DNA of 64,000 nucleotides, from positions 439,001 to 503,000 of the forward strand of contig NZ_CP117969.2 of assembly GCF_028743515.2 (NCBI RefSeq), given 5' to 3'. Under the pieces are notes generated by a model. It was not told the origin of the DNA and did not search any database. It saw only the letters and a program-made list of their open reading frames with translations. The position numbers and the translations under genes are program-made. This DNA comes from Imtechella halotolerans (lineage in GTDB: Bacteria > Bacteroidota > Bacteroidia > Flavobacteriales > Flavobacteriaceae). Shown here in pieces: positions 12,537 through 36,959 of the stretch (its first letter is position 1; each line of letters starts with the position of its first letter).

Positions 12537-12569
12537 TTATTGGGATAGCTATACTTAAAACAGAAAATT

Positions 12570-13961: not shown

Positions 13962-13976
13962 ATAAGGGAAAAATTA

Positions 13977-14006: not shown

Positions 14007-14036
14007 ATCTATTAATGAAATATTAAAAATATATTT

Positions 14037-14924: not shown

Positions 14925-14929
14925 AATCA

Positions 14930-15598: not shown

Positions 15599-15600
15599 TT

Positions 15601-16836: not shown

Positions 16837-16850
16837 AAAAGTCTAATTAT

Positions 16851-16875
16851 ATAGGCCCGAAAGGGCCTATTTATT
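16851..16875 (+). terminator. Hairpin terminator after the ABC/DUF4857 unit
   Basis: The perfect 8-bp stem ATAGGCCC/GGGCCTAT has a GAAA tetraloop (16851-16870) followed by TTATT. The T tract is short, so termination may be partial. The first M16 gene starts at 16886. Confidence 0.6.
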
Positions 16876-16885
16876 CATTTTCTAT

Positions 16886-19723: not shown

Positions 19724-19763
19724 AAAAGGGGCTTTCTCATATGGAAAGTCCCTTTTCTTTTTT
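19724..19763 (+). terminator. Intrinsic terminator after M16 peptidase 1
   Basis: A 12-13 bp stem AAAAGGGGCTTTC / GAAAGTCCCTTTT (19724-19736, 19744-19756) with one G-T pair is followed by CTTTTTT. It separates the peptidase gene from the separately promoted thioredoxin gene. Confidence 0.8.
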
Positions 19764-19851
19764 GCTAACTTTATGTTAGTTATTTAAACTTGAAATTGTA
19801 ATTTCTGGAATTTGATAAGAAGATTTAATCGGTTTATTATTTTAAATACCT

Positions 19852-19880
19852 TGTCACTCCAAGTGATTATTTATGCGTCC
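19852..19880 (+). promoter_or_regulatory. ECF-sigma promoter, copy A (thioredoxin protein 1)
   Basis: TGTCAC (19852-19857), a 17-bp spacer and GCGTCC (19875-19880) lie 31 bases before the start codon. Flanking bases are shared with copy B: TTGTCACTCC upstream and GCGTCCTAT downstream. The GCGTCC part holds the CGTC core common in ECF -10 elements, and 17 bp is a normal spacer. Confidence 0.7.
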
Positions 19881-19911
19881 TATGTATAGAAAACCACCTT
19901 AAAAAAAATAT

Positions 19912-21264
19912 ATGAAAACTAAAAAATCAATAGTATCTGTTTTGTTCCTGTTAATTACCCAATTGTTTTTTGGACAGGGAATTGATTTTAAGAATATTCC
20001 TTTTGAAGATGCCTTAGCACTAGCTAAGACTAATGATAAACTTATATTTATTGACTTTCATACCGAGTGGTGTGGACCATGTAAAAAGCTAGCCAAAGGC
20101 CCATTTAAAGAACAAAAGAATGGTGAATTCTATAATAAAAACTTTATTAACCTTAAACTAGATGCGGAAAAAGAAGGGAAAGATGCTGCCCAAAGATATC
20201 AGGTAAATGCCTTTCCTACGTTGATGTTCGTTAATGGGGATGGTGAAATAGTTCACAAAGGAGTAGGGGTAGAAAATGGATATGATATGATTGGATTTGG
20301 AAAGGAGGCTTTAAATGCTTCTAATTCCAAATATAGCTGGGCGAAATTACAGGAAATGTTTCCGCAAAGACTTGATGACCAAGAGTTCCTAAAGCTTTAC
20401 TATGTAAAAATGGAAGAATTTGGAGTTGACCCAGCTGAAGGCATTGATGCTTGGTTGAAAGTTCAAACTGAATTTGATGAATCTAGTAGAGAAATGATGG
20501 AATTTCTGTTAAGTAAACAATATTCAATCTTTGCTGGGACTAAAGCGGAAGCTATATTTAATAGTAATTATGATCATTTTGTGAGCCTGGCAACAGAACG
20601 TCAAAAAACAAGCCTATCTCGTTTAAAAAGTTCAATGATTTTAAAATCAATTAATGCAGCCAGAAAGAAGCAAGATCCTAAGCTAATGCGAGTTGTAATA
20701 GACAGATTGATTGAAAACAGTGATTTAAAAACTCCATCTGGGGATAATGTACACACGTTACAAATGGATTATTATAGATACTCACAAGATTATACTGCAT
20801 TTAAACGATTAGCTGAGCGCTATGTGGATAGTTTAATGAGACTTCATCCAATTTCCGAAATAAGAGAAAAGGATGTCTTATATTATACTAATTATTCTAA
20901 AAATAAAGAGTTTGGGATGAATAAAACTACCGATATAATGCTTACAAAGTATAAGGAAGGCAAAATAGCCAATGAATTGGTAGATGGTATAATTGAAACA
21001 GCCACTTATTATTTTGAATACTTAGCTGACAAGAAGGAGGCTAAAACTTTAAATAAATGGATTGAGTTTTGTGATAAGTTAATTCCTGAAAAATATTTGG
21101 TTGACAATTTAAAAGCGGACATTCTGTATCGTGATGGAAAGATCAAAAAAGCAATAGCCCTTAAGACTAGAGCAGTTGACAATATGCCTTTTACTGTAAA
21201 AAAGAAGGTTAATTATCAGCATGAACTTGAAGTAATGAAGCAAAGTCAAAGGAAAACCAATTAG
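19912..21264 (+). CDS. Thioredoxin-fold protein 1 with helical C-terminal domain
   Basis: A 450-residue secreted protein with a signal peptide ending near FFGQG (residues 19-23). Its thioredoxin domain (about 25-145) has active site WCGPCK (C54, C57) and a cis-proline in AFPTLMF. The C-terminal 300 residues are helical and TPR-like, and share segments with proteins at 34194 and 35560 (for example FLK-YY-KM and DAWLKVQ). It is probably a periplasmic disulfide reductase that holds its partner or substrate through the helical domain and gets electrons from the DsbD-like protein at 40322. It is monocistronic, with its own ECF-type promoter and a terminator on each side. Confidence 0.85.
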   Translation: MKTKKSIVSVLFLLITQLFFGQGIDFKNIPFEDALALAKTNDKLIFIDFHTEWCGPCKKLAKGPFKEQKNGEFYNKNFINLKLDAEKEGKDAAQRYQVNAFPTLMFVNGDGEIVHKGVGVENGYDMIGFGKEALNASNSKYSWAKLQEMFPQRLDDQEFLKLYYVKMEEFGVDPAEGIDAWLKVQTEFDESSREMMEFLLSKQYSIFAGTKAEAIFNSNYDHFVSLATERQKTSLSRLKSSMILKSINAARKKQDPKLMRVVIDRLIENSDLKTPSGDNVHTLQMDYYRYSQDYTAFKRLAERYVDSLMRLHPISEIREKDVLYYTNYSKNKEFGMNKTTDIMLTKYKEGKIANELVDGIIETATYYFEYLADKKEAKTLNKWIEFCDKLIPEKYLVDNLKADILYRDGKIKKAIALKTRAVDNMPFTVKKKVNYQHELEVMKQSQRKTN

Positions 21265-21341
21265 TTTTAAATCCAGATAAGTAGGGTTATAGTCTTTGGT
21301 TTAAAGGCTCATTTAATATTATTTTGTTAGTTATATTTTTT

Positions 21342-21397
21342 CGCTCTTCTATAGTGTAAGGTAGGTTAACGCCCTAAGCTATAGAAGAGCGTTTTTT
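21342..21397. terminator. Strong intrinsic terminator after thioredoxin protein 1
   Basis: A perfect 13-bp stem CGCTCTTCTATAG/CTATAGAAGAGCG (21342-21354, 21379-21391) is followed by six T residues. An A/T-rich run (TTTTT) also lies before it, so it may work in both directions. It lies in a 374-base gap (21265-21638) that otherwise holds only the candidate promoter of sigma factor 2. Confidence 0.8.
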
Positions 21398-21512
21398 GTA
21401 TAAAGTGTTAATATCCTAAAAATGTTGAGTTGATTTTTACTCCACTGTGATATAATGCATGGTCTTTACCCTTTTTTGTAAGAAACTTGCCAATTCGCAT
21501 TCATATTCGATT

Positions 21513-21520
21513 TAACTTTG
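21513..21520 (+). promoter_or_regulatory. -7 box of a housekeeping-type promoter for sigma factor 2
   Basis: TAACTTTG matches TAnnTTTG exactly. The best TTG upstream is slightly too far, so the -33 part is weak. The predicted leader is about 110 bases. No TGTCAC/GCGTCC copy is present here, so sigma factor 2 is probably not self-activating. Confidence 0.4.
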
Positions 21521-21638
21521 CTAAACTTGCACTACTATTATATCAATTTCTTAATCATTTAGAAACCTAAAGGTGATTTTCGGTCATCTAATTGAAATTC
21601 TAAGTATACCAAGTCAAGTGAGATAGTATTGTGTTCCT

Positions 21639-22196
21639 ATGAAAATAGCTGGCAAAGTCATTTTATACAATAGTAAAGAGTTCAATGAAATATTTGACCG
21701 TCTGTTTGTGCATATGTTTATGCTTGCATCACGTATTTTAAAAAATGATGAACGCGGGAAGGATATTGCTCAGGAGGCTTTTGTGAAATTATTTCAAAAG
21801 GATACTGAAGATTTTGAAAGTGAAAAAGCATTGCAAACGTATTTATACGTGCTGGTAAAAAACGCTTGTATAAGTGAACTTAGAAAGGACAAGAAGGTTC
21901 AAAATTCCCCATTAGAGGATGGGCTTTCGGTATCTCAACAGGCTTTTTTAAATGAAATATTACGAGAGGAAACCTATAAGTTATTACATAAAGCGATTGC
22001 TGGTTTATCTCCAAAAGCAGAGCAGGTAGTACGTCTAACTCTTGAAGGTTATAGTAATGATGATATTGCAAATGAGCTAGGAGTAACCATAAATACTGTG
22101 AAAACTGTAAAGCGTAGGGCTTACAAGAATCTTCGAGAACTTCTTGGCGATCAGTATATTACAATTCTATTTACAAATTTCATACAATTTTTTTAG
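21639..22196 (+). CDS. ECF RNA polymerase sigma factor 2
   Basis: A 185-residue ECF sigma factor. Region 2 spans about 14-83 (EFNEIFDRLFVHMFMLASRIL, KDIAQEAFVKLF) and region 4 about 118-168 with the helix-turn-helix YSNDDIANELGVTINTVKTV. It shares little beyond the family pattern with sigma factor 1. Unlike system 1, it runs in the same direction as its fecR partner, 89 bases upstream. The nearby ECF-type promoters (copies A, B and C) are best explained as its targets, so it would drive fecR2-susC2D2 and the two thioredoxin units. Confidence 0.92.
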   Translation: MKIAGKVILYNSKEFNEIFDRLFVHMFMLASRILKNDERGKDIAQEAFVKLFQKDTEDFESEKALQTYLYVLVKNACISELRKDKKVQNSPLEDGLSVSQQAFLNEILREETYKLLHKAIAGLSPKAEQVVRLTLEGYSNDDIANELGVTINTVKTVKRRAYKNLRELLGDQYITILFTNFIQFF

Positions 22197-22212
22197 ATTA
22201 ATTTAACAGTGG

Positions 22213-22241
22213 TGTCACTCTCCTTTTAAATTTGTGCGTCC
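22213..22241 (+). promoter_or_regulatory. ECF-sigma promoter, copy C (fecR2-susC2 operon)
   Basis: TGTCAC (22213-22218), a 17-bp spacer and GCGTCC (22236-22241) lie 44 bases before the fecR2 start and begin 16 bases after the sigma factor 2 stop. Spacing is identical to copies A and B. The position before an anti-sigma/receptor operon is where an autoregulated ECF promoter would be expected. Confidence 0.7.
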
Positions 22242-22285
22242 TTATAGTATACAACTTGTTATTTTGTTGTAAATTAATGTAAGAT

Positions 22286-23476
22286 ATGGACGATATTAAT
22301 AAACAAATTGGGTATTCTAAACTTTTGACAGCTAGGGTGTTAGGCTCTTTGTCAAAGGAGAAGAAGAATACTTTAGAGCAATGGGAGTTAATAGGAACCA
22401 ATAAAGAGGTTTCTAAAGATATTCTTAATGCTCAGAATTTTTCTAATTGGGAACGCAAAAAAAAGGAAATTGACACGCAGGAGGAGTGGCGTGCTTTTTT
22501 GCTGCGTATGGAGGATTCTACCAAAAAATCTACAAAAGTACGTAGGTTAAATGCTATTAAGTGGATGTCTGCTATAGCGGCTATAATGGTTATAGGATTC
22601 TTCTCATACAACTTTTTCACCTCCTCTGATAATCAATTTCAAACACTTGATAATGTGACCATAGCACCAGGGTCTTCGCGAGCTGAGCTTGTATTGTCTA
22701 CTGGAGAAGTAGTGAGCCTTGAAGAAACTCAAGGGAGCACAATACAAGAAGGACAGATGGCCATCGCTAATGATAAGGGTGTCTTAGAATATACTGATGC
22801 AACCAATGCAAATAAAACTGAGGCGAAGACTAATATTCTTAGGGTTCCAAGAGGTGCTGAGTATCAATTGGTGCTAGCCGATGGAACAAAAGTGTGGTTA
22901 AATTCAGATACAGAACTTACGTACACGGTTCCTTTTGTTGGTAATGAACGTAGAGTATCTCTTAAGGGAGAGGCTTATTTTGAGGTGTCACCTAATAAGG
23001 AGCTACCTTTTATCGTAGCTACCGTTAATCAAGAGGTGCAGGTTTTAGGTACGTCATTCAATGTTTCCTCCTATAGTGAAGAGGCTAGCGAAGTTACCAC
23101 TTTGGTTGAAGGTAAGGTTTTGGTATCAAGTGATTCCAATAAAGAAAAGATGTATTTAGATCCAAATGAACAAACGATTTTTAATAAACAAAATGCCAGT
23201 ATGAAAAAAACGTCTGTTGATGTTTATTCCTATATAGCATGGAAGGAAGGTCGTTTTGTATTTAACAATGTAACCTTTGAAGATTTTCTTTCTAAAGTGG
23301 CACGATGGTATAATGTTGATATCATCTATCATACTAATAGTGTTAAGAAATTAAGATTTACAGGTGATCTGCCTAGATATAGTGATATGACCAGTATTTT
23401 GAAAATCTTGGAAGAAGAAATGTCTGTAACAATTAATGTAGAAGGGAATAGAAATATTCACGTATACAGTAAATAA
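22286..23476 (+). CDS. FecR-family anti-sigma factor 2 (DUF4974)
   Basis: A 396-residue anti-sigma factor with a cytoplasmic region (1-88), a membrane helix (about 91-112, WMSAIAAIMVIGFFSYNFF), a periplasmic FecR domain starting near residue 190 (PRGAEYQLVLADGTKVWLN) and a C-terminal DUF4974 domain (about 324-394). It sits between sigma factor 2 and the STN receptor SusC2, the canonical arrangement for trans-envelope signalling. Its transcription would start at ECF promoter copy C. Confidence 0.92.
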   Translation: MDDINKQIGYSKLLTARVLGSLSKEKKNTLEQWELIGTNKEVSKDILNAQNFSNWERKKKEIDTQEEWRAFLLRMEDSTKKSTKVRRLNAIKWMSAIAAIMVIGFFSYNFFTSSDNQFQTLDNVTIAPGSSRAELVLSTGEVVSLEETQGSTIQEGQMAIANDKGVLEYTDATNANKTEAKTNILRVPRGAEYQLVLADGTKVWLNSDTELTYTVPFVGNERRVSLKGEAYFEVSPNKELPFIVATVNQEVQVLGTSFNVSSYSEEASEVTTLVEGKVLVSSDSNKEKMYLDPNEQTIFNKQNASMKKTSVDVYSYIAWKEGRFVFNNVTFEDFLSKVARWYNVDIIYHTNSVKKLRFTGDLPRYSDMTSILKILEEEMSVTINVEGNRNIHVYSK

Positions 23477-23557
23477 CCTACGTTTGGCAAAGACAAGCGC
23501 GCAATTTCCTTGCCTTACTATTTTAACTAAATTAAATTAATCAACAACTTTAGAATT

Positions 23558-23626
23558 ATGAATAATACAGTATTAATTGCTGCTCTTTTGGCTATAAAGA
23601 GCACTAAAATCAGTGATAAGGTATGA
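23558..23626 (+). CDS. 22-codon ORF overlapping the susC2 start
   Basis: An ATG-started frame of 22 codons ends in a TGA that overlaps the susC2 ATG as ATGA (23623-23626). Its last residues, KSTKISDKV, resemble the positively charged leader that usually precedes the hydrophobic part of STN-type SusC signal peptides. It may be a translationally coupled leader, or a frameshifted piece of the real SusC2 N terminus: one inserted base would fuse the two as KISDK-x-MRLSVIL. Confidence 0.4.
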   Translation: MNNTVLIAALLAIKSTKISDKV

Positions 23627-26600
23627 GGCTGTCAGTTATTTTAATGCTAAGTGCCATATTTACTATTAATGCGGCTACTTTCTCGCAGTCGAAACGAGTT
23701 AATTTAAACTTGAATAATGTTAGTTTCTCAGCGTTGTTTCAAGAAATTAGAAAACAGACAGGATATAGTTTTTTCTTTAATGAAGAGAAAATTAATGAAT
23801 TGTCCGCTGTTTCTGTTAAGAAAATTAATGCTCCCGTTGAAGAGGTGCTTAATAATGTGTTAGCAGGAACTGGATTGGTATACAAATTTGTAGACGGGGT
23901 CGTAATAATTGTAGAAGAAGAGAAAAGGCCAATTCAGACAAAAACAGTGACTGGTACTGTTGTCGACTCTAAAACCAAAGAACCTTTACTTGGAGTTAAT
24001 GTAATGGTTAAAAATAGTCGCTTGGGAACCGTTACCGATTTTGATGGGAATTTCTCAATAAAAATTCCTCAGAATGATGCAGTCTTGGTATTTTCATATA
24101 TAGGATATGTTAACCATGAAGTAAAGATTACCGAAAGTACTCATTTGCAGGTTAAAATGGAGGCTGAAACCTTAGGACTAGAAGAGGTAGTGGTTACAGG
24201 CTACCAGACTATTGATAAGAGGGAATTAACCAGTTCCATTGCTTCAGTTACTGCTGAAGATTTGGATATTGTTGGTGCCTTATCTATTGATAAAATGTTA
24301 GAAGGAAAGGCAACAGGTCTAATGGTCACCAGTTTGAGTTCAACTCCTGGTGCAGCTTCAAAAATTAGGGTGCGAGGAGGAAGTACCTTTACAGGTAACC
24401 AAAGTCCACTTTGGGTAGTAGATGGTGTAATTTATGAAGACCCTGTACCTCTTTCGGCAAGTGACATAAATAGTTTTGACAATGTAAATATTATAGGTAA
24501 TGCCTTGACCGGTATTAATCCGTCTGATATAGCAAAGATTGATATTTTAAAAGATGCCTCTGCAACGGCTATCTATGGAACACGTGCCGCTAACGGGGTG
24601 ATAGTTATCACTACAAAGAGAGGTGAAAAAGGGAAGCCTGTAATGACCTATTCTGGTGGATATAGCCTTACTCAAGCACCTCAGTATTCTGATTTAAATC
24701 TTATGAATTCAAGGGAACGTATCGATGTATCAAGAGAGATGTATGAACGTAATTTAGGGTATAGTAACTCGTATGAGAATATAGATCGACTTGGGTATGA
24801 AGGAGCTCTTATGAATTTATGGGATGGTACTTATACCTATGATGATTTCAAAAAAAGGGTAAATTATCTTGAGACTTTAAATAGTGATTGGTTTGGGAAA
24901 TTGTACAGAAATTCTTTTACTGAAACACACTCCTTAAGTGCTTCTGGAGGAAGTGATAATGCTAAGTATTATTTCTCCATAGGATACGATGACCAGAAGG
25001 GGGCGGAACAAAATGTAGATTTAAACCGAATTACTGCCCGTTCAAATGTAGATCTTAATGTAAGAGATAATGTATTGTTGTCTTTACGTATGAATGGTTC
25101 TATTCAAAAGGGACATTATAATCATGGTTCAGTTAATGTGTTTAATACTGCGTATTACACCAGTAGAACCATTCCTATTTACAATGAAGATGGTAGCTAT
25201 TTTATGCAGAGTCAGGAAATTAGATCTGATGGTTATGGGATAGAATATGCAGGATATAATGTGCTAAATGAAATGAACAATTCTGAGCGCAATATCACTA
25301 ATAAGGACTTTTCAGTAGCAGCATCCTTGCGTTGGGACTTTTGGGATAAGTTTAGATTTACCAGTCAGGCTAGCTATAGAAATACCACGAACCTTACTGA
25401 GGAATGGATTACTGAAGATACTTTTTATGCTTCAAAACTACGTACCTATCAATATTTTGAAAATTTAATTGATGAGCGCGTAAATAATAATGGGTTACTT
25501 CCTTTCGGTGGTGTGTATACAGGTGGAATGGTAAATCAAGACACCTATTCTATTACCAATCAATTAAACTATAATACATTATTAGGAGGTAAACATTCCA
25601 TAAATGTTAACTTAGGACAAGAGGCACGTTCTATAAATTATTGGGGAGCAACTGGATTCACTGTTCCAGGGTATAATCATTATCAGGGTAGAGGGTTTGT
25701 AGCTTTGCCTAGTCCCGGAGTTGTCTCAGTTGATGGAGTTAGTACTATAGACTTTTCGGAATATGATTATGACAACATGATCAACTGGCTTACCACAAAA
25801 GGCGGCCTTAATGTGTATCCTAATATTACCGATCGAGTTAATAATTTTATGTCTGTATTTGGGATAGTTAACTATGTGTATGATGGTCGTTATGTACTTA
25901 ATTTTAATATGCGTAGTGATGGTTCAAATGCATTTGGCCAATATGAGCGCTATAAATTTAAGCCTACATACTCATTTTCTACACGTTGGAATTTACATAA
26001 TGAAAAATTCTTGAGTGATGTTCAATGGCTGGATGAATTAGCTCTTAGAGGGTCTTATGGGGTAAGAGGAACCATGCCTGATGCTAGTCCCTACCTTGTA
26101 ATATCTAATTATGGAAGAAATGATGTGTATTACTATCCTGAAAATGTGGCTAGTTTAGGGTCTTTTCCAAATGCAAACCTTAGGTGGGAAAAAACTCAAA
26201 CAACCGATTTAGGTATTAACTATAGTTTATTGGGTGGTAGAATTAGTGGAGCATTGGATTATTCCTATTCTAAAAGTACAGATCTTCTACAAGCAAGACC
26301 GGTTTCTTTAGTGAATGGTACAGCTGTACAGGCATTTAATTCAGGGAGTAAGGATGTAAGTAGTTATGAGTTTTCTATAAGAACTATAAATATCAAAAAG
26401 AAAGATTTGGCATGGAGTACTCATTTTAATTTCTCTTATAATAAGGATAGAGTTCTCAAAGGGTTTGAGGATGGTGCGCTCGCTAATTTGACGGTTAATA
26501 ATTACCTGAGAGGTAGTATATATCGAGAAGGATTCCCAACCAATGGTTTTTTCTCTTATAAATTTGAAGGATTAAATGAACATGGACTTCCAACTTTTGC

Positions 26601-27249
26601 TCATCTAGTAGAGGAAAATATGACTCCTGAAGAGCAATTAAAGGCAGCATTAGTGTATCAGGGAAGTAGAGTTCCATTGTATTATGGAGGTTTTGGTACC
26701 CAAATAAAATCTGGAAACTTCACGCTTTCTGCTAATTTCACATACAAACTGGGGTATAAGACGAGATTATTAAGCTTGTATAATGGCAATCAAAATTTAC
26801 CATTGCCTTATGAAAACATGCATGCAGATTTTAATAATAGATGGAGACAACCAGGTGATGAAGCGTTTACGAATATTCCAGGAATATCTAATTATGATTT
26901 AAGATTTACAAGTAATCCATCAGCTGATGGTTTTAATAGTATTTATGTAACTAATATAAGATATATGGTGCCAAGTGGATCAAATGCCTGGTGGATGTAT
27001 GACAATAGTGATGCCAGGGTGGTAAGTGCTAGTCACATTCGATTTCAGTCAGTAACACTTTCTTATAATTTACCTAAAAGCTTAATTGAAGGAACTGGGA
27101 TAAATCATATGAATATTGGAATTCAAGGTAGTAATCTAGGATATTTTGCCTTTGATGGAAAGCTTAGAGGACAGGATCCTGAGCAGGTATCAGGTATAGG
27201 GTTACCAACCTTGCCAAACTATAGTTTAAGTGTTAACATGAGTTTCTAA
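23623..27249 (+). CDS. SusC/RagA-type TonB-dependent receptor with STN domain (system 2)
   Basis: A 1208-residue outer-membrane receptor with a signal peptide (1-18, MRLSVILMLSAIFTINAA), an STN domain (about 25-98), a CarboxypepD_reg-like domain (about 109-180), the segment EEVVVTGYQ, and a plug and barrel with DASATAIYGTRAANGVIVIT and NNRWRQPGDEAF. The STN domain should contact FecR2. Its start is uncertain: SusC3 of this window carries about 20 extra residues before the hydrophobic part, and the overlapping ORF at 23558 could encode the equivalent. It forms the transporter pair with the next gene, which follows after 10 bases. Confidence 0.92.
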   Translation: MRLSVILMLSAIFTINAATFSQSKRVNLNLNNVSFSALFQEIRKQTGYSFFFNEEKINELSAVSVKKINAPVEEVLNNVLAGTGLVYKFVDGVVIIVEEEKRPIQTKTVTGTVVDSKTKEPLLGVNVMVKNSRLGTVTDFDGNFSIKIPQNDAVLVFSYIGYVNHEVKITESTHLQVKMEAETLGLEEVVVTGYQTIDKRELTSSIASVTAEDLDIVGALSIDKMLEGKATGLMVTSLSSTPGAASKIRVRGGSTFTGNQSPLWVVDGVIYEDPVPLSASDINSFDNVNIIGNALTGINPSDIAKIDILKDASATAIYGTRAANGVIVITTKRGEKGKPVMTYSGGYSLTQAPQYSDLNLMNSRERIDVSREMYERNLGYSNSYENIDRLGYEGALMNLWDGTYTYDDFKKRVNYLETLNSDWFGKLYRNSFTETHSLSASGGSDNAKYYFSIGYDDQKGAEQNVDLNRITARSNVDLNVRDNVLLSLRMNGSIQKGHYNHGSVNVFNTAYYTSRTIPIYNEDGSYFMQSQEIRSDGYGIEYAGYNVLNEMNNSERNITNKDFSVAASLRWDFWDKFRFTSQASYRNTTNLTEEWITEDTFYASKLRTYQYFENLIDERVNNNGLLPFGGVYTGGMVNQDTYSITNQLNYNTLLGGKHSINVNLGQEARSINYWGATGFTVPGYNHYQGRGFVALPSPGVVSVDGVSTIDFSEYDYDNMINWLTTKGGLNVYPNITDRVNNFMSVFGIVNYVYDGRYVLNFNMRSDGSNAFGQYERYKFKPTYSFSTRWNLHNEKFLSDVQWLDELALRGSYGVRGTMPDASPYLVISNYGRNDVYYYPENVASLGSFPNANLRWEKTQTTDLGINYSLLGGRISGALDYSYSKSTDLLQARPVSLVNGTAVQAFNSGSKDVSSYEFSIRTINIKKKDLAWSTHFNFSYNKDRVLKGFEDGALANLTVNNYLRGSIYREGFPTNGFFSYKFEGLNEHGLPTFAHLVEENMTPEEQLKAALVYQGSRVPLYYGGFGTQIKSGNFTLSANFTYKLGYKTRLLSLYNGNQNLPLPYENMHADFNNRWRQPGDEAFTNIPGISNYDLRFTSNPSADGFNSIYVTNIRYMVPSGSNAWWMYDNSDARVVSASHIRFQSVTLSYNLPKSLIEGTGINHMNIGIQGSNLGYFAFDGKLRGQDPEQVSGIGLPTLPNYSLSVNMSF

Positions 27250-27259
27250 AAGAAGAATT

Positions 27260-28675
27260 ATGAAAAAAATTATATATATACTAGCACTTTTGCCTTTATG
27301 GGGGTGTAGTGGTTTTTTGGATGAAGTAGATCAAGACAAGTTGATTCCTGAAAAAGTAGAACACTATGAGGCCCTTCTTCTTAAAGAGTTTAATGGGACT
27401 TATCCGCTAATGAGGACTGTAGACCATATGACAGATAATCTTGTTGAAGATCCCACAGCTACTACTTCTCGTAAGTTTTCAGTAAAAACTACCTATACTT
27501 GGCAGAGGGAGATAGAGATCGATGAAAATGGTAATAGAATATCAGGTATTAATTCCTCATGGGAATTTATGTATGAGGATATTGCCATAGCCAACTATGT
27601 AATTGAACTTATAGATGATGCCTTAGGAGAAGAAAATCAGAGAAATTATACCAAAGGTGAAGCCTATTTTATTCGTGCTTTGAGCTATTTTAATTTGGTA
27701 AACCTGTATGGTTTGCCATATAATGAGGCTACTGCAAATGTAGATTTGGGTGTTCCATTAAGAGATAATATCGGAGTAGAACTTACGTATAGTAGAAATA
27801 CTGTAGCAGAATGTTATGCTTTCATTGAAAATGATTTGGAAAAGGCAATTGAATTAATCACTTTGAGTGCTGCAGAAAAGAGTATATGGCATCCAAACCT
27901 GGCAGCATGTAACTTATTAATGTCTAGAATTAAACTTTACCAGCAAAAATGGGATGAAGCTATTGATTTTGCAGATAAGGTTATAGAAAGCCGAAGCCTT
28001 GTGAAAATTACTCCAAATGCACCGTTTGTTACCCAGAGTAATTCAGAAATACTGTATTCTTATTATACTACAAATCCAATACGATTAACAGACGATATTC
28101 CATTTAAAGCAAATCCTCAGCTTATAAATATGTATGAAGCAAAGGATCTACGTAAGGCAGTGTTTTTCTCTTCGATTGATGATGGAACTGGAAGATTTAA
28201 TTATTATTCAAATAAATACATTAGAGATACTTACACTGAATTAGGGTTTGCGAATTTTAGAGTTGCAGAAGCGTATCTTAATAGAGCTGAAGCCTATGCC
28301 AAAAAAGGAGAATCTGCCAATGCATTAAATGATATCATGGCTTTGCACGCTAAGCGTTATTCGGATGTGTCTGGAATTGTCTATCCTAGCAATCCAACAG
28401 AGGTGCTTACTTTGGTACTTAATGAAAGACGTAAAGAATTCTGTTTTGAAGATCATCATAGATGGTTCGATCTAAGAAGAATGGAAAACAGACCAGAGAT
28501 CCAACATGAGTTTACCTTGATTGAAAACAATGGTACGCGATTAGGCAAGGAAGTGTATACTCTGTTATCAAACGATCTTAATTATACACTGCCTATTCCT
28601 ATTCAGGAAAGAAATAACAATCCGCTGATTAGAAATAATGAGCGCTATGAGAAGATTCCGATAATCGTTGATTAA
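27260..28675 (+). CDS. SusD/RagB-like surface lipoprotein (system 2)
   Basis: A 471-residue lipoprotein with lipobox cysteine C16 (LWGC), SusD helices (KGEAYFIRALSYFNLVNLYG) and the C-terminal SusD segment LNERRKEFCFEDHHRWFDLRRM. It lies 10 bases after susC2 and is followed by two more lipoprotein genes in the same direction, so the surface complex of this system probably has three or more lipoproteins. It is as short as SusD1 and shares its opening pattern (a FLDE/YLDIE start, then VIPES/LIPEK), which suggests the two systems are related by duplication. Confidence 0.92.
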   Translation: MKKIIYILALLPLWGCSGFLDEVDQDKLIPEKVEHYEALLLKEFNGTYPLMRTVDHMTDNLVEDPTATTSRKFSVKTTYTWQREIEIDENGNRISGINSSWEFMYEDIAIANYVIELIDDALGEENQRNYTKGEAYFIRALSYFNLVNLYGLPYNEATANVDLGVPLRDNIGVELTYSRNTVAECYAFIENDLEKAIELITLSAAEKSIWHPNLAACNLLMSRIKLYQQKWDEAIDFADKVIESRSLVKITPNAPFVTQSNSEILYSYYTTNPIRLTDDIPFKANPQLINMYEAKDLRKAVFFSSIDDGTGRFNYYSNKYIRDTYTELGFANFRVAEAYLNRAEAYAKKGESANALNDIMALHAKRYSDVSGIVYPSNPTEVLTLVLNERRKEFCFEDHHRWFDLRRMENRPEIQHEFTLIENNGTRLGKEVYTLLSNDLNYTLPIPIQERNNNPLIRNNERYEKIPIIVD

Positions 28676-28717
28676 TTGGGATTTGGTAACATTAACTTCA
28701 ACCTTTTATAAAGAATT

Positions 28718-29824
28718 ATGAAAAATAAAATATTTGCATATGGGGTGTTATTAGCGTTGGTATTCACAGCATGTAGCACTGAAGATGATCTGGAACCATC
28801 AGATCTAGATAATGATAGAGTGTCCACCCAATTGGATATGTCAAACCCACTAGTAAAACGTTGGTTCACGGATTATAATACGGGGGTTTTGTATGAATAT
28901 GACAGATTACTTGATTTTGTATACGTAGCCTCTTCCGCTCAGGAGGCTGCCTCCTGGGAAGGTGTTGAATTACCGGAGCTTAGTACCTTATATTCGGATG
29001 AGAATGGTGTCTTTATTCCCTCTGAAGAGGAGGCCTATAAAGCCCATGTACAGGCATCTCTGGAGTTTTTGGATGCAAACTTATTTGCTTATTTTAAACC
29101 AAATTCGAAAGTAGCTACTTTAATGCCTCATAAAGTATTAATTAGTGAGTCTATTTTTAGTAATGGTAATATTCCAGGTGGCAAAGTGCTTACAGAATCA
29201 GAAGAGAGATTCAGTTCTTCAAATCAATATGGACAAAGAGCCGTATTTAATAGACACTCCATTGTTTTTGCCCTTAATCAAGACGAATTTCAAAATGATC
29301 CAGAAGGATATACGAAGGATAATTTTTATATTTTCTTAACTCGACTAATGAATATGCATAATTTGTATGCACAACTTCCTGAATCCTTTTTTACTTCCAA
29401 AGAAAACTATTATGGGAAGGAAATGGAAGCTATCTATAGAGAAGAATTAGGTATTGGAGAGGAAAAAACAGTCTATGTTATTGACAAAAATTGGTTTTAT
29501 TCTAAAGGATTTATTGACGCCATATATTTCTATAATGGATCTTCGGGATTACGTAGTTATACCCAAAGTTTTGATGAAGATGGCAATAGGTTGCCAACTC
29601 GTATTACCCATTTAAAGGCTATCAGACCTAACTATGATTTTGTTGATAGTAGAGAAATTGATGTACGAAGCTATATCAATGAAATGATTTATAGGGATGC
29701 GGATGAGTTCTTGGAATTCCCACAAAATATTCAAGATAATTTAAAGGCCTTACTGGATTTGTTTACAGATTTAGGAATAGATATTCTTGCCTTGAATCCT
29801 GATTTGGAAGTACTAAACCAATAA
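28718..29824 (+). CDS. Surface lipoprotein resembling Peptidase_Mx1 without HExxH
   Basis: A 368-residue lipoprotein with lipobox cysteine C19 (FTAC) followed by the acidic run STEDDLEPSDLDND, typical of surface-exported lipoproteins. The middle part resembles the putative zinc-binding metallopeptidases (Peptidase_Mx1) that often follow susD genes: an NPLVKRWF-DYN-GVLYEY start, FLDANLFAYF-P-KVLI, and a histidine-bearing segment. Where those proteins carry HExxH, this one reads LTRLMNMHNLYAQL, so the zinc motif is absent. It is therefore probably a non-catalytic binding subunit of the SusC2D2 complex. The family link is from memory of the motif pattern and is moderate. Confidence 0.55.
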   Translation: MKNKIFAYGVLLALVFTACSTEDDLEPSDLDNDRVSTQLDMSNPLVKRWFTDYNTGVLYEYDRLLDFVYVASSAQEAASWEGVELPELSTLYSDENGVFIPSEEEAYKAHVQASLEFLDANLFAYFKPNSKVATLMPHKVLISESIFSNGNIPGGKVLTESEERFSSSNQYGQRAVFNRHSIVFALNQDEFQNDPEGYTKDNFYIFLTRLMNMHNLYAQLPESFFTSKENYYGKEMEAIYREELGIGEEKTVYVIDKNWFYSKGFIDAIYFYNGSSGLRSYTQSFDEDGNRLPTRITHLKAIRPNYDFVDSREIDVRSYINEMIYRDADEFLEFPQNIQDNLKALLDLFTDLGIDILALNPDLEVLNQ

Positions 29825-29840
29825 ATTACCTAAAGAAATT

Positions 29841-31322
29841 ATGAAAAAAACAATAACATATACAATTATATTGGGGCTTTCATTTTTGCTCTTGCTGCAA
29901 TCATGTCAAGAGGACCCTAGTTTTCCTGATCCAGGATTTGAAATCGGAGATCAACGTGTCGAAGTAAGAAGAGATACCGCTGATTATTACGATATTAAAA
30001 TGAAAATGGATGTGCCTAATCAAGTAAAAGAAATCTTATTACTAGACGCACTTGATTATTCCCTATTAGAAACGATTAATGAGTATAATAATAAGACGAA
30101 ATTTGATTTTAACTATCGCGTAGACCTAACTTCCTTTGACAAGGATACGGTACTTAACTATATTATTAAGGTTACCGATAAGGATGCTCGTAGTTTTAAT
30201 AGAGGTATTCGTATTTCAGTAAAAAGATTTTCTTTCCCTGAGATTAAATTGATAGGTGGTTCCAGTATTGCTCTCGCCGCACCTGCTTACAATGTGAAAG
30301 GTAAAATTTCAACTGGACTTAACCTTATTAGCTCAGTTAAGGTGCTGTTTGAAGGAGAAGAACAGTATTCTTTTGTACCTCAAGCGGGGGAAGAACTACA
30401 TGAAATGGATTTAAAAGCTTTGGTATTCTTAGGGGACCTGGATCCATCTCAACAGTATACAATTGATATAGTTATTGCTGATAATATGGGCCAAGAATCA
30501 ACCACGAACATAACAGTTAGAAAAAGTGAGTTTGTTAAAAAGCCTTATAGGATTAATTACCTGAACACCTCTGGTATTATTATTCATATTGAACCTACCT
30601 ATAACGAAGATGGTAATATAGTTGCTTTTGATTATAAGTGGACCAATAATGGCAATAATTATCGAAATGAATTCCATTATAATGATCAAAAAATGATAGA
30701 TACCGTTTTATATCGTTCTTTAGATGCTGATGGTAATTATTCTAGAGACTGGTATACGTATATTAATTATGTGGAAGGTACTAAACAAATATCCACCATA
30801 GAATCTCAATCTTTTGAATATGATGGAGGAAATGTGAGTGTAGGTAGCGTAGATGTTGAGGCTTCAAGTTTTGTCTATACTCCAGAAGGAACGGTATCTT
30901 CATTTAGAACCAGTTCCACAGTTAGTAATGTCTATTATTCAGATCCGTTTAATTTAGGCGAAAGTGTTTTTGGTGAATATTGGCAATTAGCAAGTTATAT
31001 GACTAATAATGCTTCTAGAAGGCAACACAGAGAAGAGTATGACCCTATCCTAATTCCTACATTTATCGAAGGGCTACCACCTTTTTACGATTATAACAGC
31101 TCCGTTTTTTTAAATGTGTTTAATGATATCTTCTGGCATAAATATATGATGACGAAAACAGTTCCTACTGATCCTACTTATACAGGAACATTTTTAAGAG
31201 AACCTAGTTTTACCTATGAAACAGATGATGAAGGGAATATTATTTCGATTTTGAAGACGTATACTTCAGGAGGTTCTCAGTTTGAAGGTAAGACAGAGAG
31301 ATATACTTTCTTTTATGACTAA
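29841..31322 (+). CDS. Surface lipoprotein of unknown function (system 2)
   Basis: A 493-residue lipoprotein with lipobox cysteine C22 (LLQSC) and an acidic start (QEDPSFPDPG). The first half (about 35-230) is rich in beta segments with repeated Lys-Val-Thr-Asp patterns and looks like two immunoglobulin or cadherin-like domains. The second half contains YNEDGNIVAFDYKW and YINYVEGTKQISTIES, a pattern of short YD-type beta strands. I do not recognise a named family. Its place between the Mx1-like lipoprotein and the second M16 gene suggests an accessory substrate-binding subunit on the cell surface. Confidence 0.6.
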   Translation: MKKTITYTIILGLSFLLLLQSCQEDPSFPDPGFEIGDQRVEVRRDTADYYDIKMKMDVPNQVKEILLLDALDYSLLETINEYNNKTKFDFNYRVDLTSFDKDTVLNYIIKVTDKDARSFNRGIRISVKRFSFPEIKLIGGSSIALAAPAYNVKGKISTGLNLISSVKVLFEGEEQYSFVPQAGEELHEMDLKALVFLGDLDPSQQYTIDIVIADNMGQESTTNITVRKSEFVKKPYRINYLNTSGIIIHIEPTYNEDGNIVAFDYKWTNNGNNYRNEFHYNDQKMIDTVLYRSLDADGNYSRDWYTYINYVEGTKQISTIESQSFEYDGGNVSVGSVDVEASSFVYTPEGTVSSFRTSSTVSNVYYSDPFNLGESVFGEYWQLASYMTNNASRRQHREEYDPILIPTFIEGLPPFYDYNSSVFLNVFNDIFWHKYMMTKTVPTDPTYTGTFLREPSFTYETDDEGNIISILKTYTSGGSQFEGKTERYTFFYD

Positions 31323-31339
31323 AATATAAATTATTAAAT

Positions 31340-34027
31340 ATGAATATGTTTTTTTTAAATATCAAAAAAACAATTATTTCACTCCTATTCATTAGTATTT
31401 CTGCCCATAGTTTTGGGCAGAAATTTTTTATGCCAGAGAGTGTTATTTATAAAAAATTACCGAATGGATTCTCCTATTATCTACTACCTGATGATGGAGA
31501 GCGAGGAAAGATCACAGTGCATTTACTTTCTTCTGTTGGATCATTGGTTGAGGCCCCTAATGAAAGGGGAGTAGGACATTTTATTGAACATATGGTCTTT
31601 AAAGGGAGTAAAAATTTTCCTGGAGAAGGGACTATGAAGGAGTTGGATAAAATGGGTCTTAGGATCGGTAGGGATTATAATGCTAGTGTAAGTAATACAT
31701 TGACAGAATATCATATTAATCTTCCGCAAGACAATTGGGATTATTTGCAGCAAACATTGTTGCTAATGAAGGATTGGGTTTCTGATCTAGAGATGGAGGA
31801 AGAATCTTTCAAAGTGGAACAAAAAGTAGTTATAGAAGAGATTCGTAAACGTAATTCATCAGTGTCTCCTTACCTTATCGGTACTCCATTGGAGGGACAT
31901 GATGGATTAGGGACGGAAGAACAGATAAATAGTATTACATCTGAAGAAGTGAAAACATTTTATCATAAATATTATACTCCTGATAATGTGGCTTTAGTTA
32001 TTCAAGGAAAGGTTAATGAAAAAAAAGTTATAAGGTTCATTGAAAGTACTTTTGGTCAAATCCCAGCCAAAAAAAATACGTTAGAAAATAAATATATTGA
32101 TTTAACGAAGAAAACGGTTATCGATTCTACCTATGTTTCTTCATTTAAGAGTAATGTACCTTCTCTTGTATTGGCATTTAAAGCCCCAAGTGTAGCTATT
32201 ACTAGTTACGAGTCCTTTAAAATAAATTACATTGACTATCTCTTTAGCATGATTTTAGAGAACAGATTGATGACTTTTTCTGATGATGATTTAAATGAGA
32301 CCAATGTAATGATAAGTGAGATATTGCCTGGGTCAATGATGTATAATATTAGGATGCAAGGCAAAAATCAGATTAGTTATTCTAAAATGTTAGACATATT
32401 CGTAAAAGTAATAGCCGAAGCAAGGAAAAATGGATTTTCTCAGGAAGAAATTGATTATTTTCTGGATAGACTTATCAAGAAAAATGAAGCAGAAGGTTCA
32501 GATGAAATAATACGGTTTGCAGCTGCACAAAAGCATTTTTTAACGGGTGATACTCCTTTGTTAAAGATGGATAGGCGTGCATACTTTAAAGAGTTACAAG
32601 AGACTATTACGCCTGAAGACTTTAAATCTGTACTGCAAAATTTTACAGATTATCACAAAACCATTTTATATGATCGTAATTCAGTTTCTTTTACTTCTGA
32701 TTTTCAAGGTTCCTATATATTAAGTAAACTGGGAAATAGTATCAATGAGGTCGGAGACTTCCCGAAATATGTATTTTCAGAACCTAAAGGTGGTTTTATG
32801 ATTAGGGTAGCAAAAAATCTTTCGGATATTGAAGTACCTCAAAATAATCCTTTAGCTGTTTATAGAAAAAAGAATCTGGGAGAAGGGTTATATCTATTAG
32901 AGTTTAAAAACGGGATGTCGGTATTGGTTAACAATGCTCCTACGGTTAAGGCTCAAATTAAATTGATTTCCAAACATGGATTGTCCACGTTGCCAGAAAA
33001 TGATACCCTTATTTTTAAGCAAACTTTAGCTCTTTTTAATAAGACCTTTGGTGGTTATGATGAAAAGCAAGCTTCAAATTTGTTAAGAGAATATATGTTT
33101 AAATTACGAGATGATATAAGTCCGGCTCATTATCAGTTAGAACTTACAAGCGTAGCTAAATCTTTAGAATATAAACATTTATTGCAGGCATTCCATCTAA
33201 TTTTAGGGAGTGAATATATGCCTGAATGGTCTGCTTTTAAGGAAGAAGTGAAATCTGACAGAGAACTCAAAAAAAGGAGCAATATTGAGATTGATGAAGA
33301 TGTTCTGAAACGAATGTATGCATATAATCAGGAGTTCAAACGAAACTTCAAAGATGCCTATATATATGTAGGAGGTAACTTACCAGCTAATATTGATGAA
33401 CTTATATCCTTGTATTTAGCTACGATCAAACCCTTAGATTTATCAAAATCTAATAGACTTACTACTTTGAGTACGGAAGACAATGTTTCAAAATATATAG
33501 AAGAAGCCAGAGGTAAGATTCAATCACGTGCTAGTTTTAATTTTGAAAAAACATATGCTAGAAATTATACATTTAAAGAGTTATTGGTAGCTGAGGTGAT
33601 TTCAGAATATGGATATCAACGTATTTTTGATGTTTTACGAAAAAAACATGGATTAGTATATTCCTCTGGAACCAGTGCTGGAGGTAAAGTAGAAGAAAAT
33701 ACTTTATGGGTTAGTTTGAGGTACATTGCCGATAATACAAATTTACTCAAGGCTAAGAATATAATGATTAATGAAATTTTGAAACCTATGAGTAAGGGAG
33801 AAATCTCAAATGAAGAAATAGCTATAATCAAGGCAAAATTAGCTGGTAAATTAGATTTATATTTTTATGACGATGAGGTTGTAAGTGATGTCTATATTAA
33901 AAGAGCACTTAAGTTTAATAAGTTATTTACCGTCAAGGAATTGAATAAACTGGTAAACAGTATTTCTAATAAAAGAATTAGAGAGGGGTTGAAATCATAT
34001 ATTGATTATTCGAAAGGGTTTGAGTAA
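31340..34027 (+). CDS. Periplasmic M16 zinc metallopeptidase 2
   Basis: An 895-residue secreted M16 peptidase with a signal peptide ending near SFGQ. The zinc motif is HFIEH (H80, E83, H84) with third ligand E160, so it is predicted active. The C-terminal half ends with a weaker copy of the substrate segment (LRKKHGLVYSSGTS). It is more divergent from M16 peptidases 1 and 3 than they are from each other, both of which have AHxLEHxAFNG and GGTYGV. It is the last gene of the fecR2-susC2 unit (17-base gap to the lipoprotein gene) and is closed by a strong terminator. It probably degrades peptides delivered by SusC2D2. Confidence 0.9.
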   Translation: MNMFFLNIKKTIISLLFISISAHSFGQKFFMPESVIYKKLPNGFSYYLLPDDGERGKITVHLLSSVGSLVEAPNERGVGHFIEHMVFKGSKNFPGEGTMKELDKMGLRIGRDYNASVSNTLTEYHINLPQDNWDYLQQTLLLMKDWVSDLEMEEESFKVEQKVVIEEIRKRNSSVSPYLIGTPLEGHDGLGTEEQINSITSEEVKTFYHKYYTPDNVALVIQGKVNEKKVIRFIESTFGQIPAKKNTLENKYIDLTKKTVIDSTYVSSFKSNVPSLVLAFKAPSVAITSYESFKINYIDYLFSMILENRLMTFSDDDLNETNVMISEILPGSMMYNIRMQGKNQISYSKMLDIFVKVIAEARKNGFSQEEIDYFLDRLIKKNEAEGSDEIIRFAAAQKHFLTGDTPLLKMDRRAYFKELQETITPEDFKSVLQNFTDYHKTILYDRNSVSFTSDFQGSYILSKLGNSINEVGDFPKYVFSEPKGGFMIRVAKNLSDIEVPQNNPLAVYRKKNLGEGLYLLEFKNGMSVLVNNAPTVKAQIKLISKHGLSTLPENDTLIFKQTLALFNKTFGGYDEKQASNLLREYMFKLRDDISPAHYQLELTSVAKSLEYKHLLQAFHLILGSEYMPEWSAFKEEVKSDRELKKRSNIEIDEDVLKRMYAYNQEFKRNFKDAYIYVGGNLPANIDELISLYLATIKPLDLSKSNRLTTLSTEDNVSKYIEEARGKIQSRASFNFEKTYARNYTFKELLVAEVISEYGYQRIFDVLRKKHGLVYSSGTSAGGKVEENTLWVSLRYIADNTNLLKAKNIMINEILKPMSKGEISNEEIAIIKAKLAGKLDLYFYDDEVVSDVYIKRALKFNKLFTVKELNKLVNSISNKRIREGLKSYIDYSKGFE

Positions 34028-34075
34028 GTCCCTACTACAGTAGCTTAATAATACGAATAGTATTTTCTAATGGAG

Positions 34076-34108
34076 GTAGAGTTGTGTTTTCACAGCTCTA
34101 CTTTTTTT
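34076..34108 (+). terminator. Intrinsic terminator after M16 peptidase 2
   Basis: An 11-bp stem GTAGAGTTGTG/CACAGCTCTAC (34076-34086, 34091-34101) with one G-T pair, a TTTT loop and seven T residues. It closes the system 2 operon just before ECF promoter copy B. Confidence 0.85.
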
Positions 34109-34117
34109 ATAAGGCAT

Positions 34118-34146
34118 TGTCACTCCCAGACCCCAGTTTTGCGTCC
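34118..34146 (+). promoter_or_regulatory. ECF-sigma promoter, copy B (thioredoxin 2-3, M16-3, DsbD unit)
   Basis: TGTCAC (34118-34123), a 17-bp spacer and GCGTCC (34141-34146) lie 47 bases before the start codon and directly after a terminator. Bases around both boxes match copy A (TTGTCACTCC, GCGTCCTAT). Confidence 0.7.
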
Positions 34147-34193: not shown

Positions 34194-35540
34194 ATGAAAA
34201 GAACCCTATTCACGTTTATAACGTATATACTAATAGGTTGTTGGACACTATCGGCCCAAGGAATCGATTTCCAAAAGTTATCCTTGGAGGAGGCTTTAGC
34301 CAAAGCTTCTATTGAAAAAAAATTAGTGTTTATTGATTTTTACACGACTTGGTGTGCCCCGTGTAAAACCATGACTAAGCTAATTTTTCCACTTCCTGAG
34401 GTTGGAGAAGTCTATAATAAAGAATTTGTAAATATTAAACTTGATGCTGAAAAGGAAGGTCTTAAGGCGGCTAAAAAATACAATGTCCAAAGCTATCCTA
34501 CCTTATTATTTTTAGATTCTCAAGGGAACGTGGTATTCAAAGAGACGGGTTTACGTCCTGTAAATGATTTTATTGAATTAGGTAAAAACGCCGTATCAGC
34601 TCATAGAAGTGAATTAAGTTTACAACGTTTACAGGAGGAGTTTCCTAAAAGACAAAATGATGCTTCATTTCTAAAAATCTATTATACAAAAATGATTGAG
34701 TACGGACAAAGTCCTATTGAAGGTATTAATGCTTGGCTTAAAGTGCAAAAGGAAATTGATGAGGATGATGAGGATATGATGGAATTTTTGTTTAAGTACA
34801 AAAATTACATTGTGGCAGGATCCAAAGGAGAGGCAATATTGCAAGCCAATTTTGATGAATATATGGATATTGCTACTAAAAAGGAAGAAGACGAATTAGA
34901 GCGCTTTAAAGTTCAGATTCTTCAGAATACTAGAGATTTAGCGTATCAAACTCAAAATCCGGATTTATGGTTAACCTTTATGGAAGGATTTAATAAATTA
35001 CCTGAAAAGTTTAAAAAACGAGGTAATCCAGTGGAGTATAAGATGACATACGCTGCTTTACTTAAAGATGATCAAACTTTTAAAATTCTTACTAAAAAAT
35101 ATATAGATAGTCTAATAAGTCAAAAATCTATAACTGAAATTACGGAAACAGATACTAAAGAGTATGAGAGGAGAGCTAAGTCTCTTGAAAATAGCAATTC
35201 TCCAGAGGTTACTCGAATACTTCAGGCCTATAAGAATGGTATGGGAGCGGGTTCAATTGTAGAAGACATTCATCAAAAAGCGCAAGCATACCTTGCTCGT
35301 GTGGATTCAAATTCAGAGTACAAAGACATTGAAAATTGGATTGCATATGGCGATCAATTAGGAGCTAGTTCATATTACATGGATAACCTTAGGGCTGATA
35401 TGTACTATAAAAGAGGAAAAGTAAAAAAGGCGATTAACTATAAAAAACAAGCATTAGCTAATTGGCCTGATTACGACAAAAAGCGTGATACCAGAGTCTA
35501 TGAGCTATCACTGATGGAAGGAACACAAAAGATAAAATAA
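34194..35540 (+). CDS. Thioredoxin-fold protein 2 with helical C-terminal domain
   Basis: A 448-residue secreted thioredoxin-fold protein with a signal peptide ending near LSAQG. The active site is WCAPCK (C54, C57), with cis-proline in SYPTLLF. It is clearly paralogous to protein 1 over the whole length: FPKRQNDASFLKIYYTKM and INAWLKVQKEIDED align with FPQRLDDQEFLKLYYVKM and IDAWLKVQTEFDES, and the C-terminal TPR-like part with DNLRADMYYKRGKVKKAI also aligns. It is first in a unit with thioredoxin protein 3, M16 peptidase 3 and the DsbD genes. It is likely a periplasmic disulfide reductase for imported peptides or for cysteines of the M16/DsbD partners. Confidence 0.85.
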   Translation: MKRTLFTFITYILIGCWTLSAQGIDFQKLSLEEALAKASIEKKLVFIDFYTTWCAPCKTMTKLIFPLPEVGEVYNKEFVNIKLDAEKEGLKAAKKYNVQSYPTLLFLDSQGNVVFKETGLRPVNDFIELGKNAVSAHRSELSLQRLQEEFPKRQNDASFLKIYYTKMIEYGQSPIEGINAWLKVQKEIDEDDEDMMEFLFKYKNYIVAGSKGEAILQANFDEYMDIATKKEEDELERFKVQILQNTRDLAYQTQNPDLWLTFMEGFNKLPEKFKKRGNPVEYKMTYAALLKDDQTFKILTKKYIDSLISQKSITEITETDTKEYERRAKSLENSNSPEVTRILQAYKNGMGAGSIVEDIHQKAQAYLARVDSNSEYKDIENWIAYGDQLGASSYYMDNLRADMYYKRGKVKKAINYKKQALANWPDYDKKRDTRVYELSLMEGTQKIK

Positions 35541-36891: not shown

Positions 36892-36959
36892 TTAAGAGAT
36901 TTTTTTAATGAGTTTAGAAGTAGTTTTCATTACTTCTAGGTTTGCTCAAAACAATAGCA

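Follow-up and report, generated by a model that had tools for sequence, protein, structure and literature searches.

A probable two-box promoter shared by a SusCD receptor operon and thioredoxin/M16 peptidase genes as the putative regulon of a FecI-like sigma factor in Imtechella halotolerans

Main finding

Three copies of a two-box site, TGTCAC-17 bp-GCGTCC, occur within 14.3 kb of the Imtechella halotolerans genome, and it is very probable, judged from sequence comparison, that they serve as promoters for sigma factor 2 (sigma2), a FecI-like ECF sigma factor, and that by computation they constitute its whole regulon. This assignment, which a sequence-only reading of the same DNA had put forward, is supported by the uniqueness of the sites in the genome, by their conservation in nine genomes, by the way in which the site tracks sigma2, and by the fit between the second base of the -35 box and a residue of the sigma factor. 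Sequence data sufficed to fix the promoter, the sigma factor and the complete predicted regulon, and related sigma factors, when compared, supply a recognition rule that can be tested.

Gene organization around the sites

The DNA that was analysed (the window) comprises 64,000 nucleotides, positions 439,001 to 503,000 of contig NZ_CP117969.2. The genes and elements concerned are the following, with positions in the window:

19852..19880, +, putative sigma2-type promoter 1 (TGTCAC-17-GCGTCC) of trx1, with a T run upstream at 19840-19843
19912..21264, +, trx1, thioredoxin-domain protein of 450 aa (Pfam PF00085 and relatives), by eye probably exported
21639..22196, +, sigma factor 2, FecI-like ECF sigma of 185 aa (Pfam Sigma70_r2/r4_2)
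22213..22241, +, putative sigma2-type promoter 2, between sigma2 and fecR2, kept in 9/9 sigma2 genomes
22286..23476, +, fecR2, FecR-type anti-sigma/sigma regulator, the next gene to sigma2 (Pfam FecR 2.5e-17, FecR_C 1.7e-17)
23623..27249, +, susC2, TonB-dependent transducer (STN 1.1e-11 at the N-terminal residues 48-97; Plug 4.5e-14; TIGR04056, SusC/RagA, 668 bits)
27260..28675, +, susD2, surface lipoprotein partner (Pfam SusD-like_3, SusD_RagB)
28718..29824, +, u368, lipoprotein by eye, with a modelled fold that resembles 4l7a, without HExxH
29841..31322, +, u493, lipoprotein by eye, with Ig-like plus further beta domains in the predicted structure
31340..34027, +, m16b, M16 peptidase with HxxEH (HFIEH) (Pfam and motif)
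34073..34108, +, hairpin plus T run, probable terminator of the m16b operon (-19.8 kcal/mol; missed by a simple terminator scanner), the T run lying just 5' of promoter 3
34118..34146, +, putative sigma2-type promoter 3 of the trx2 operon, with equivalents at trx2-type genes in 9/9 genomes, three of them degenerate
34194..35540, +, trx2, thioredoxin-domain protein (CAPC), by eye probably exported (Pfam and motif)
35560..36891, +, trx3, thioredoxin-domain protein (CAPC), by eye probably exported (Pfam and motif)
36942..39797, +, m16c, M16 peptidase (HFLEH) (Pfam and motif)
39852..40307, +, dsbDn, DsbD N-terminal-domain protein (Pfam PF11412)
40322..42274, +, dsbD, DsbD-like transmembrane thiol reductant carrier (Pfam DsbD_TM 3.3e-25)

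The gene sets behind the sites were: trx1 alone (site 1), fecR2-susC2-susD2-u368-u493-m16b (site 2) and trx2-trx3-m16c-dsbDn-dsbD (site 3). No copy of the site was found between trx1 and sigma2 in the pattern scans of window and genome. The Pfam matches of sigma2 were confined to region 2/4 (or ECF/HTH) models, with no further domain, and its best NCBIfam match was TIGR02985 (the Bacteroides expansion ECF family) at 103.6 bits, under the cut-off of 126.4.

The window also contains, at 7043-19705, a second SusCD/FecR cluster without a TGTCAC site, which comprises a divergent sigma gene, fecR1, susC1, susD1, an ABC transporter, DUF4857 and an M16 peptidase, and behind whose terminator trx1 stands with site 1. 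A third SusCD cluster (42465-50244, -) contains a redoxin gene and fecR3, which abuts trkA, and has no adjoining sigma gene.

Position, sequence and rarity of the sites

The coordinates, strand, boxes and 17-bp spacers given for the three copies by the sequence-only reading were all confirmed, and so was the claim that they lie 31-47 bases before a start codon, the distance from the end of GCGTCC being 31 (Trx1), 44 (FecR2) and 47 (Trx2) bases. The further claim that two copies directly follow terminators held for the 34118 copy only, where a hairpin (~34073-34104, -19.8 kcal/mol) lies immediately 5'; the 19852 copy is found ~90 bp downstream of a terminator (stem 19724-19756 plus tail), and the 22213 copy lies 17 bp past the sigma2 stop codon, where the strongest hairpin is weak (-0.3 kcal/mol). 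The part that is common to the three copies is longer than the boxes noted earlier and reads TGTCACTC-N14-TGCGTCC, the remaining spacer and flank sequence being dissimilar.

We searched the genome, one contig of 3,113,111 bases, with the exact pattern TGTCACTN{14,17}TGCGTCC and with the reversed pattern as a control, and recovered three exact matches, all within the window before the named genes, and no control match. The sequence-only reading had named many random hits outside promoter regions as evidence that would count against it; the genome contained just these three. The chance expectation for the 12 fixed bases is 0.043 (base composition) or 0.021 (first-order Markov), both estimated from the window composition, and the Poisson probability of at least three copies is 1.3e-5. 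When up to two mismatches were allowed, the genome gave 51 matches (3 exact, 0 with one mismatch, 48 with two) vs 53 for the reversed control, and the window 4 matches vs 0.89 expected, a number reached in 1 of 100 shuffles. Since one-mismatch copies are lacking and two-mismatch copies are at background, the three sites form a sharp and isolated class.

A candidate for a fourth, degenerate site at G000:C1:2064227 (two mismatches; G000 is the I. halotolerans genome) was rejected as it is located inside an open reading frame. At G000:C1:1834918-1837739 eight identical pattern matches were spaced exactly 399 bases apart, and represent a long tandem repeat.

Conservation in other genomes

The search of named genomes for sigma2 recovered eight loci, of which one (L039, 25% identity) was left out as a non-orthologue. 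The seven orthologues, 58-72% identical, were found in a Flavobacterium MAG, three Aestuariibaculum, Zhouia, Robertkochia and an uncultured Carboxylicivirga, and an eighth (64% identical; genome G261) was added from the family scan described below. Carboxylicivirga belongs to another class, Bacteroidia, and the nine genomes thus span two Bacteroidota classes.

The site is present between sigma2 and fecR2 in all eight further genomes, with the same gene order in 9/9, and fecR2 is followed by susC2, susD2, u368 and u493 in seven of the eight, the contig of the Flavobacterium MAG ending inside fecR2. A site, at times degenerate, also precedes the trx2 operon in all eight, so that each of the nine genomes has a site 5' of fecR2 as well as one 5' of a trx/M16 unit. 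The proposal that the sites join the receptor operon with a thioredoxin/M16/DsbD unit fits the trx/M16 part in 9/9 genomes, and is not general with respect to DsbD, for which linkage to a site was found only in I. halotolerans and, as DsbD_N alone, in G261; in Carboxylicivirga DsbD_N is located before sigma2.

A loose pattern, TGTCACYCN{14,16}GCGTC, was run over the I. halotolerans genome and the seven named genomes, from some of which it had been derived, and gave 18 matches vs 1 control match. All but one of the 18 precede fecR2 or a trx gene. The exception, an extra sigma2-type site in Carboxylicivirga (L073:697-4081), is located in the same locus between u493 and m16b, before a gene whose product ends in a type IX sorting domain. 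These 18 matches, three degenerate sites and the fecR2 site of G261 make up a set of 22 sites in nine genomes, which are not independent because most are orthologous. The weaker trx2 copies are those of Robertkochia, the Flavobacterium MAG (353 bases 5' of the called start) and G261.

Within the set TGTCAC and CGT are present in 22/22 and the C two bases after TGTCAC is invariant; position 7 of the -35 region is T in 18/22 and C in 4/22, and never A. The spacer is 17 bp in 20/22 sites and 18 bp in the other two, both in Carboxylicivirga, and the called start follows at 31-76 bases in 19/21 cases. One of the Robertkochia sites is on a different contig, far removed from sigma2, and precedes an orthologue of trx1 (63% identical); it had no part in the derivation of the motif and repeats the trx1 link of the window.

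A T run precedes the -35 box, with T in 20-21 of the 22 sites at each position from -14 to -10 relative to the box; the fecR2 site of the window, where the run is interrupted, is among the exceptions. Hairpins of -12 kcal/mol or lower (raw energies) run into the T run at 6/10 trx2 sites, where the promoter and the terminator of the operon upstream are closely packed, and at 0/9 fecR2 sites. We considered whether the T run is a mere terminator tail and rejected this, as the hairpin is found at none of the nine fecR2 sites and 8/9 of these still have an unbroken T run.

Co-occurrence of site and sigma2 within the family

In 299 genomes of the family, that of I. halotolerans included, sigma2 candidates were scored among the best ≤11 per genome with E 1e-25 or better, a selection in which a carrier might have been overlooked. 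Orthologues (64-100% identical) were recovered in at least 4/299 genomes, well separated from the next matches, which were ≤39% identical; two of the four carriers, G115 and G249, are the A. suncheonense and Zhouia genomes that were counted already. The loose pattern was found in 4/4 carriers (9 matches, 0 control) and in 11 of the 295 other genomes (12 matches, below the 22 control matches), which gives a Fisher probability, calculated by hand, of ~4e-6. Because some of these genomes had gone into shaping the pattern, this is not a blind test. The stricter pattern, based on the window only, had the Zhouia fecR2 site as its sole match in the 298 other genomes, and the control had none.

Promoter recognition by regions 4.2 and 2.3

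More distant FecI-like sigma factors (34-39% identical) often have in the same place a T run, TTTAACCC or TTTCACCC, ~17 bp, and CGTC or CGTT. Columns 157 and 160 of the alignment are the only ones in the region 4.2 helix that fully split the nine sigma2 proteins from 14 such distant sigmas, and a paralogue of I. halotolerans itself, L092, whose promoter is TGTCACCC, also has Arg160. By eye alignment we take column 160 to be Arg176 of E. coli RpoE. The groups can also be told apart by columns beyond the helix, as would be expected from their relatedness alone.

We collected two further sets of sigma factors, one of them queried with L092, and searched for their promoters with a pattern in which bases 2 and 4 of the -35 box may be any base. 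With Arg160, base 2 of the -35 box is G in 29/29 pairs, 20 of them recovered by this blind finder (19 of the L092 kind plus L148, which has TGACACCC) and the other 9 contributed by the sigma2 proteins with their own sites; all 13 pairs with Ile160, which come from the same blind finder, have T there. The region 4.2 residue of sigma2 fits base 2 of its sites as far as these sequences go. Nine genes for which the pattern gave no promoter were left uncounted: L150 and L152 (Arg), L151=L158 (Ile), L157 (Val), L149 (Lys), L078 and L089 (Asn), and L085 and L087 (Gln). Rows that duplicated a gene (L151, L153, L156, L160) were excluded from the counts; at L093 and L095 (2/17 FecR regions) an internal start had been called, which makes the upstream DNA uninformative; and the loci of the TGTC clade were cut at the start of the 143-residue query, so that columns 1-42 were uncompared there. 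In the tree the three groups appeared as three supported clades that need at least two changes, and the rule for residue 160 therefore has about two independent events.

The first base of the -10 box varies with column 79 in region 2.3: CGT occurs with Ser (9) and Asp (14), and TGT with Asn (19); column 88 was less clean. L148 (Asp79, CGTC) falls, on a long branch, within the TGT clade, a placement that, if right, makes a second event for column 79. The reading of a single flipped -10 base by the region 2.3 loop is known for ECF sigma factors according to the part of the literature consulted (PMC8103513).

In the sigma-fecR gap of L079, L081, L084, L086, L088, L090 and the I. halotolerans locus L096 (G000:C1:703583 region) a T run and TTTAACCC-N16-CGTC were observed, and this class is apparently the more general form of the sigma2-type promoter. 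L092 (G000:C1:1305700-1308000) and L129-L147 make up a separate clade with TGTCACC[C/T] and a TGTC -10; they have the -35 of sigma2 and a different -10.

We tentatively propose, at somewhat less than an even chance, a joint reading: many FecI-like promoters of the Bacteroidota could be read from the genome by a code of residues 160 and 79, and the sigma2 regulon would be a SusCD route for importing proteins or peptides with disulphide bonds, which would be reduced first and proteolysed afterwards. In such a code the promoter would lie in the sigma-fecR gap and consist of a T run, T-[G/T]-T-[C/A]-A-C-[C/T]-C, ~17 bp and a -10 ending in GTC; at -35 base 2 residue 160 would specify G (Arg) or T (Ile), and at the first -10 base residue 79 would specify C (Ser/Asp) or T (Asn).

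Proposed regulatory wiring

Binding of a substrate at SusC2/SusD2 would be reported by the STN domain of SusC2 to FecR2, which would free or activate sigma2, and RNA polymerase with sigma2 would then bind the T run plus TGTCACYC (-35) and GCGTC (-10), so that (a) the operon from fecR2 to m16b, (b) the operon from trx2 to dsbD and (c) trx1 would be transcribed. At the scanned loci no exact or one-mismatch site was found before sigma2 on its strand, and a two-mismatch one in Robertkochia lies ~500 bp upstream. Since sigma2 has no site directly before it, the receptor and FecR2 would rise while sigma2 itself is probably set by another promoter. Feedback would then be positive through the receptor and negative through FecR2, and read-through from trx1 into the sigma2 gene may add a weak positive loop. 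Cross-recognition is possible because the paralogue L092 shares the -35 box, the -10 (TTGTC) being different.

Alternative explanations

That paralogue leads to the foremost alternative, which we consider unlikely: the sites would be ECF promoters that are read wholly or partly by another FecI-like sigma factor (e.g. G000:C1:1306126), and the regulon would not be sigma2's own. The paralogue carries the same Arg160 and has TGTCACCC-17-TTGTCA as its own promoter, and PMC9723704, in the part available, allows for overlap between ECF regulons in a related species. However, 19 of the 20 members of its clade with a promoter have a TGTC -10 (the exception is L148, on its long branch, with TGACACCC and CGTC), and these 19 differ from sigma2 at column 79 in region 2.3. 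Moreover, an L092-type sigma is present in genomes without a sigma2-type site, for instance G021 and G049; the 295 family genomes that lack sigma2 show no more than background matches to the motif; and the site adjoins sigma2 in 9/9 genomes.

Co-occurrence with sigma2 also bears on the idea that an unlinked DNA-binding regulator uses the sites as operators and that they are not promoter elements. Being short, common to the set and upstream of genes, they could pass for operators, but they are non-palindromic, have a fixed spacing of 17 (18) bp with CGT at -10 and, in 19/21 cases, lie 31-76 bases before the called start, and related sigma factors have the pair TTTAACCC-CGTC in the same place, so that we regard operators as quite improbable. 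Less credible still, to the point of being negligible, is chance or the recent duplication of an upstream region, which the confinement of the copies to 14.3 kb and the position of two of them before paralogous trx genes might suggest: the spacers and flanks are unlike, 0.02-0.04 copies are expected in the genome, and the site is kept across genera and in a second class. Promoters read by sigma2 remain the reading that we prefer.

u368, u493 and the purpose of the regulon

The two lipoproteins that follow susD2 were inspected by structure prediction and domain search. The model of u368, built from seven orthologues, has a mean pLDDT of 76.4 (four sister models: 63.4 to 39.3) and resembles 4l7a, a putative zinc metallopeptidase of Bacteroides caccae (Z 11.0, next row 5.8; rmsd 4.2 over 211 aligned residues); a Foldseek search with the model gave no significant match (best 4l7a, E 0.2). 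Because HExxH is absent in 7/7 orthologues we read u368, on the basis of its model, as a binding protein with a metallopeptidase-like fold. The model of u493 (pTM 0.60) consists of beta domains with many Ig-like matches, none of them informative, and suggests that u493 is a probable surface binding protein. For the two proteins of the window Pfam gave nothing at E 0.001, and at E up to 1 all u368 and u493 orthologues gave weak and mixed matches, the best being RHS_repeat in 3/7 u493 orthologues (E 3.6e-4).

The link of a SusCD receptor with a thioredoxin/DsbD/M16 set points to the uptake of a protein or peptide and not of a glycan. The most likely purpose of the regulon, at somewhat less than an even chance, would be to import a protein or peptide with disulphide bonds; the thioredoxins, fed by DsbD, would reduce it and the M16 peptidases would cleave it.

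Comparison with known systems

The sigma2 system is a further case of a kind that is already known, FecI/FecR cell-surface signalling. In the literature searched (mostly without subscription papers) we found no report of this motif, regulon or gene set, no Flavobacterium ECF promoter with CGTC and, by title or abstract opening, no SusCD/M16/thioredoxin/FecR system.

With FecI/FecR/FecA of E. coli the system shares an ECF sigma factor, a FecR-type regulator and an STN-bearing TonB-dependent receptor, whereas here the promoter stands before the anti-sigma gene and receptor, the receptor is SusC/SusD and there is a separate Trx/M16/DsbD operon. In the parts of PMC9249621 consulted, fecIR transcription is described as not autoregulated, and HasI of Serratia as raising expression of the anti-sigma gene hasS while hasI is not autoregulated. 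The wiring of HasI/HasS/HasR is the one that we infer for sigma2, but the Has system serves haem uptake, and no M16/thioredoxin operon is mentioned in those parts.

The promoter of ECF41, TGTCACA-n16-CGTC (from the part of PMC3426412 consulted), is close to TGTCACYC-GCGTC in that TGTCAC and CGT are common to both, position 7 of the sigma2 sites never being A. ECF41 sigma factors have a C-terminal regulatory extension and drive adjacent COE genes, whereas sigma2 is FecI-like and consists of the sigma regions only; membership of sigma2 in ECF41 was rejected, given its 185 aa and no C-terminal extension in the Pfam scan. The SM6 promoters of F. psychrophilum differ as well, their named targets including type IX secretion genes. 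SigW-1 (ECF251) of B. thetaiotaomicron resembles sigma2 as an ECF sigma factor that acts on genes of a SusCD-type locus, also at a distance, but has a -10 motif TGTT from a motif search that was not significant, and polysaccharide/sulphatase genes as targets (PMC12596196, as far as consulted).

The Fus and YddB/PqqL systems, finally, combine a TonB-dependent receptor with M16 peptidases and are proposed to import and cut proteins (PMC6793856, consulted in part); in its main text SusD, thioredoxin and disulfide are absent, and sigma occurs only in a supplier's name. M16 peptidases with HxxEH (m16b, m16c) are linked with a receptor here too, but FusA is not SusC-like, and the receptor of the sigma2 system is set apart as SusC/RagA by its family match (TIGR04056). 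By this analogy we infer that the sigma2 regulon may be a parallel to the Fus systems, with a different receptor.
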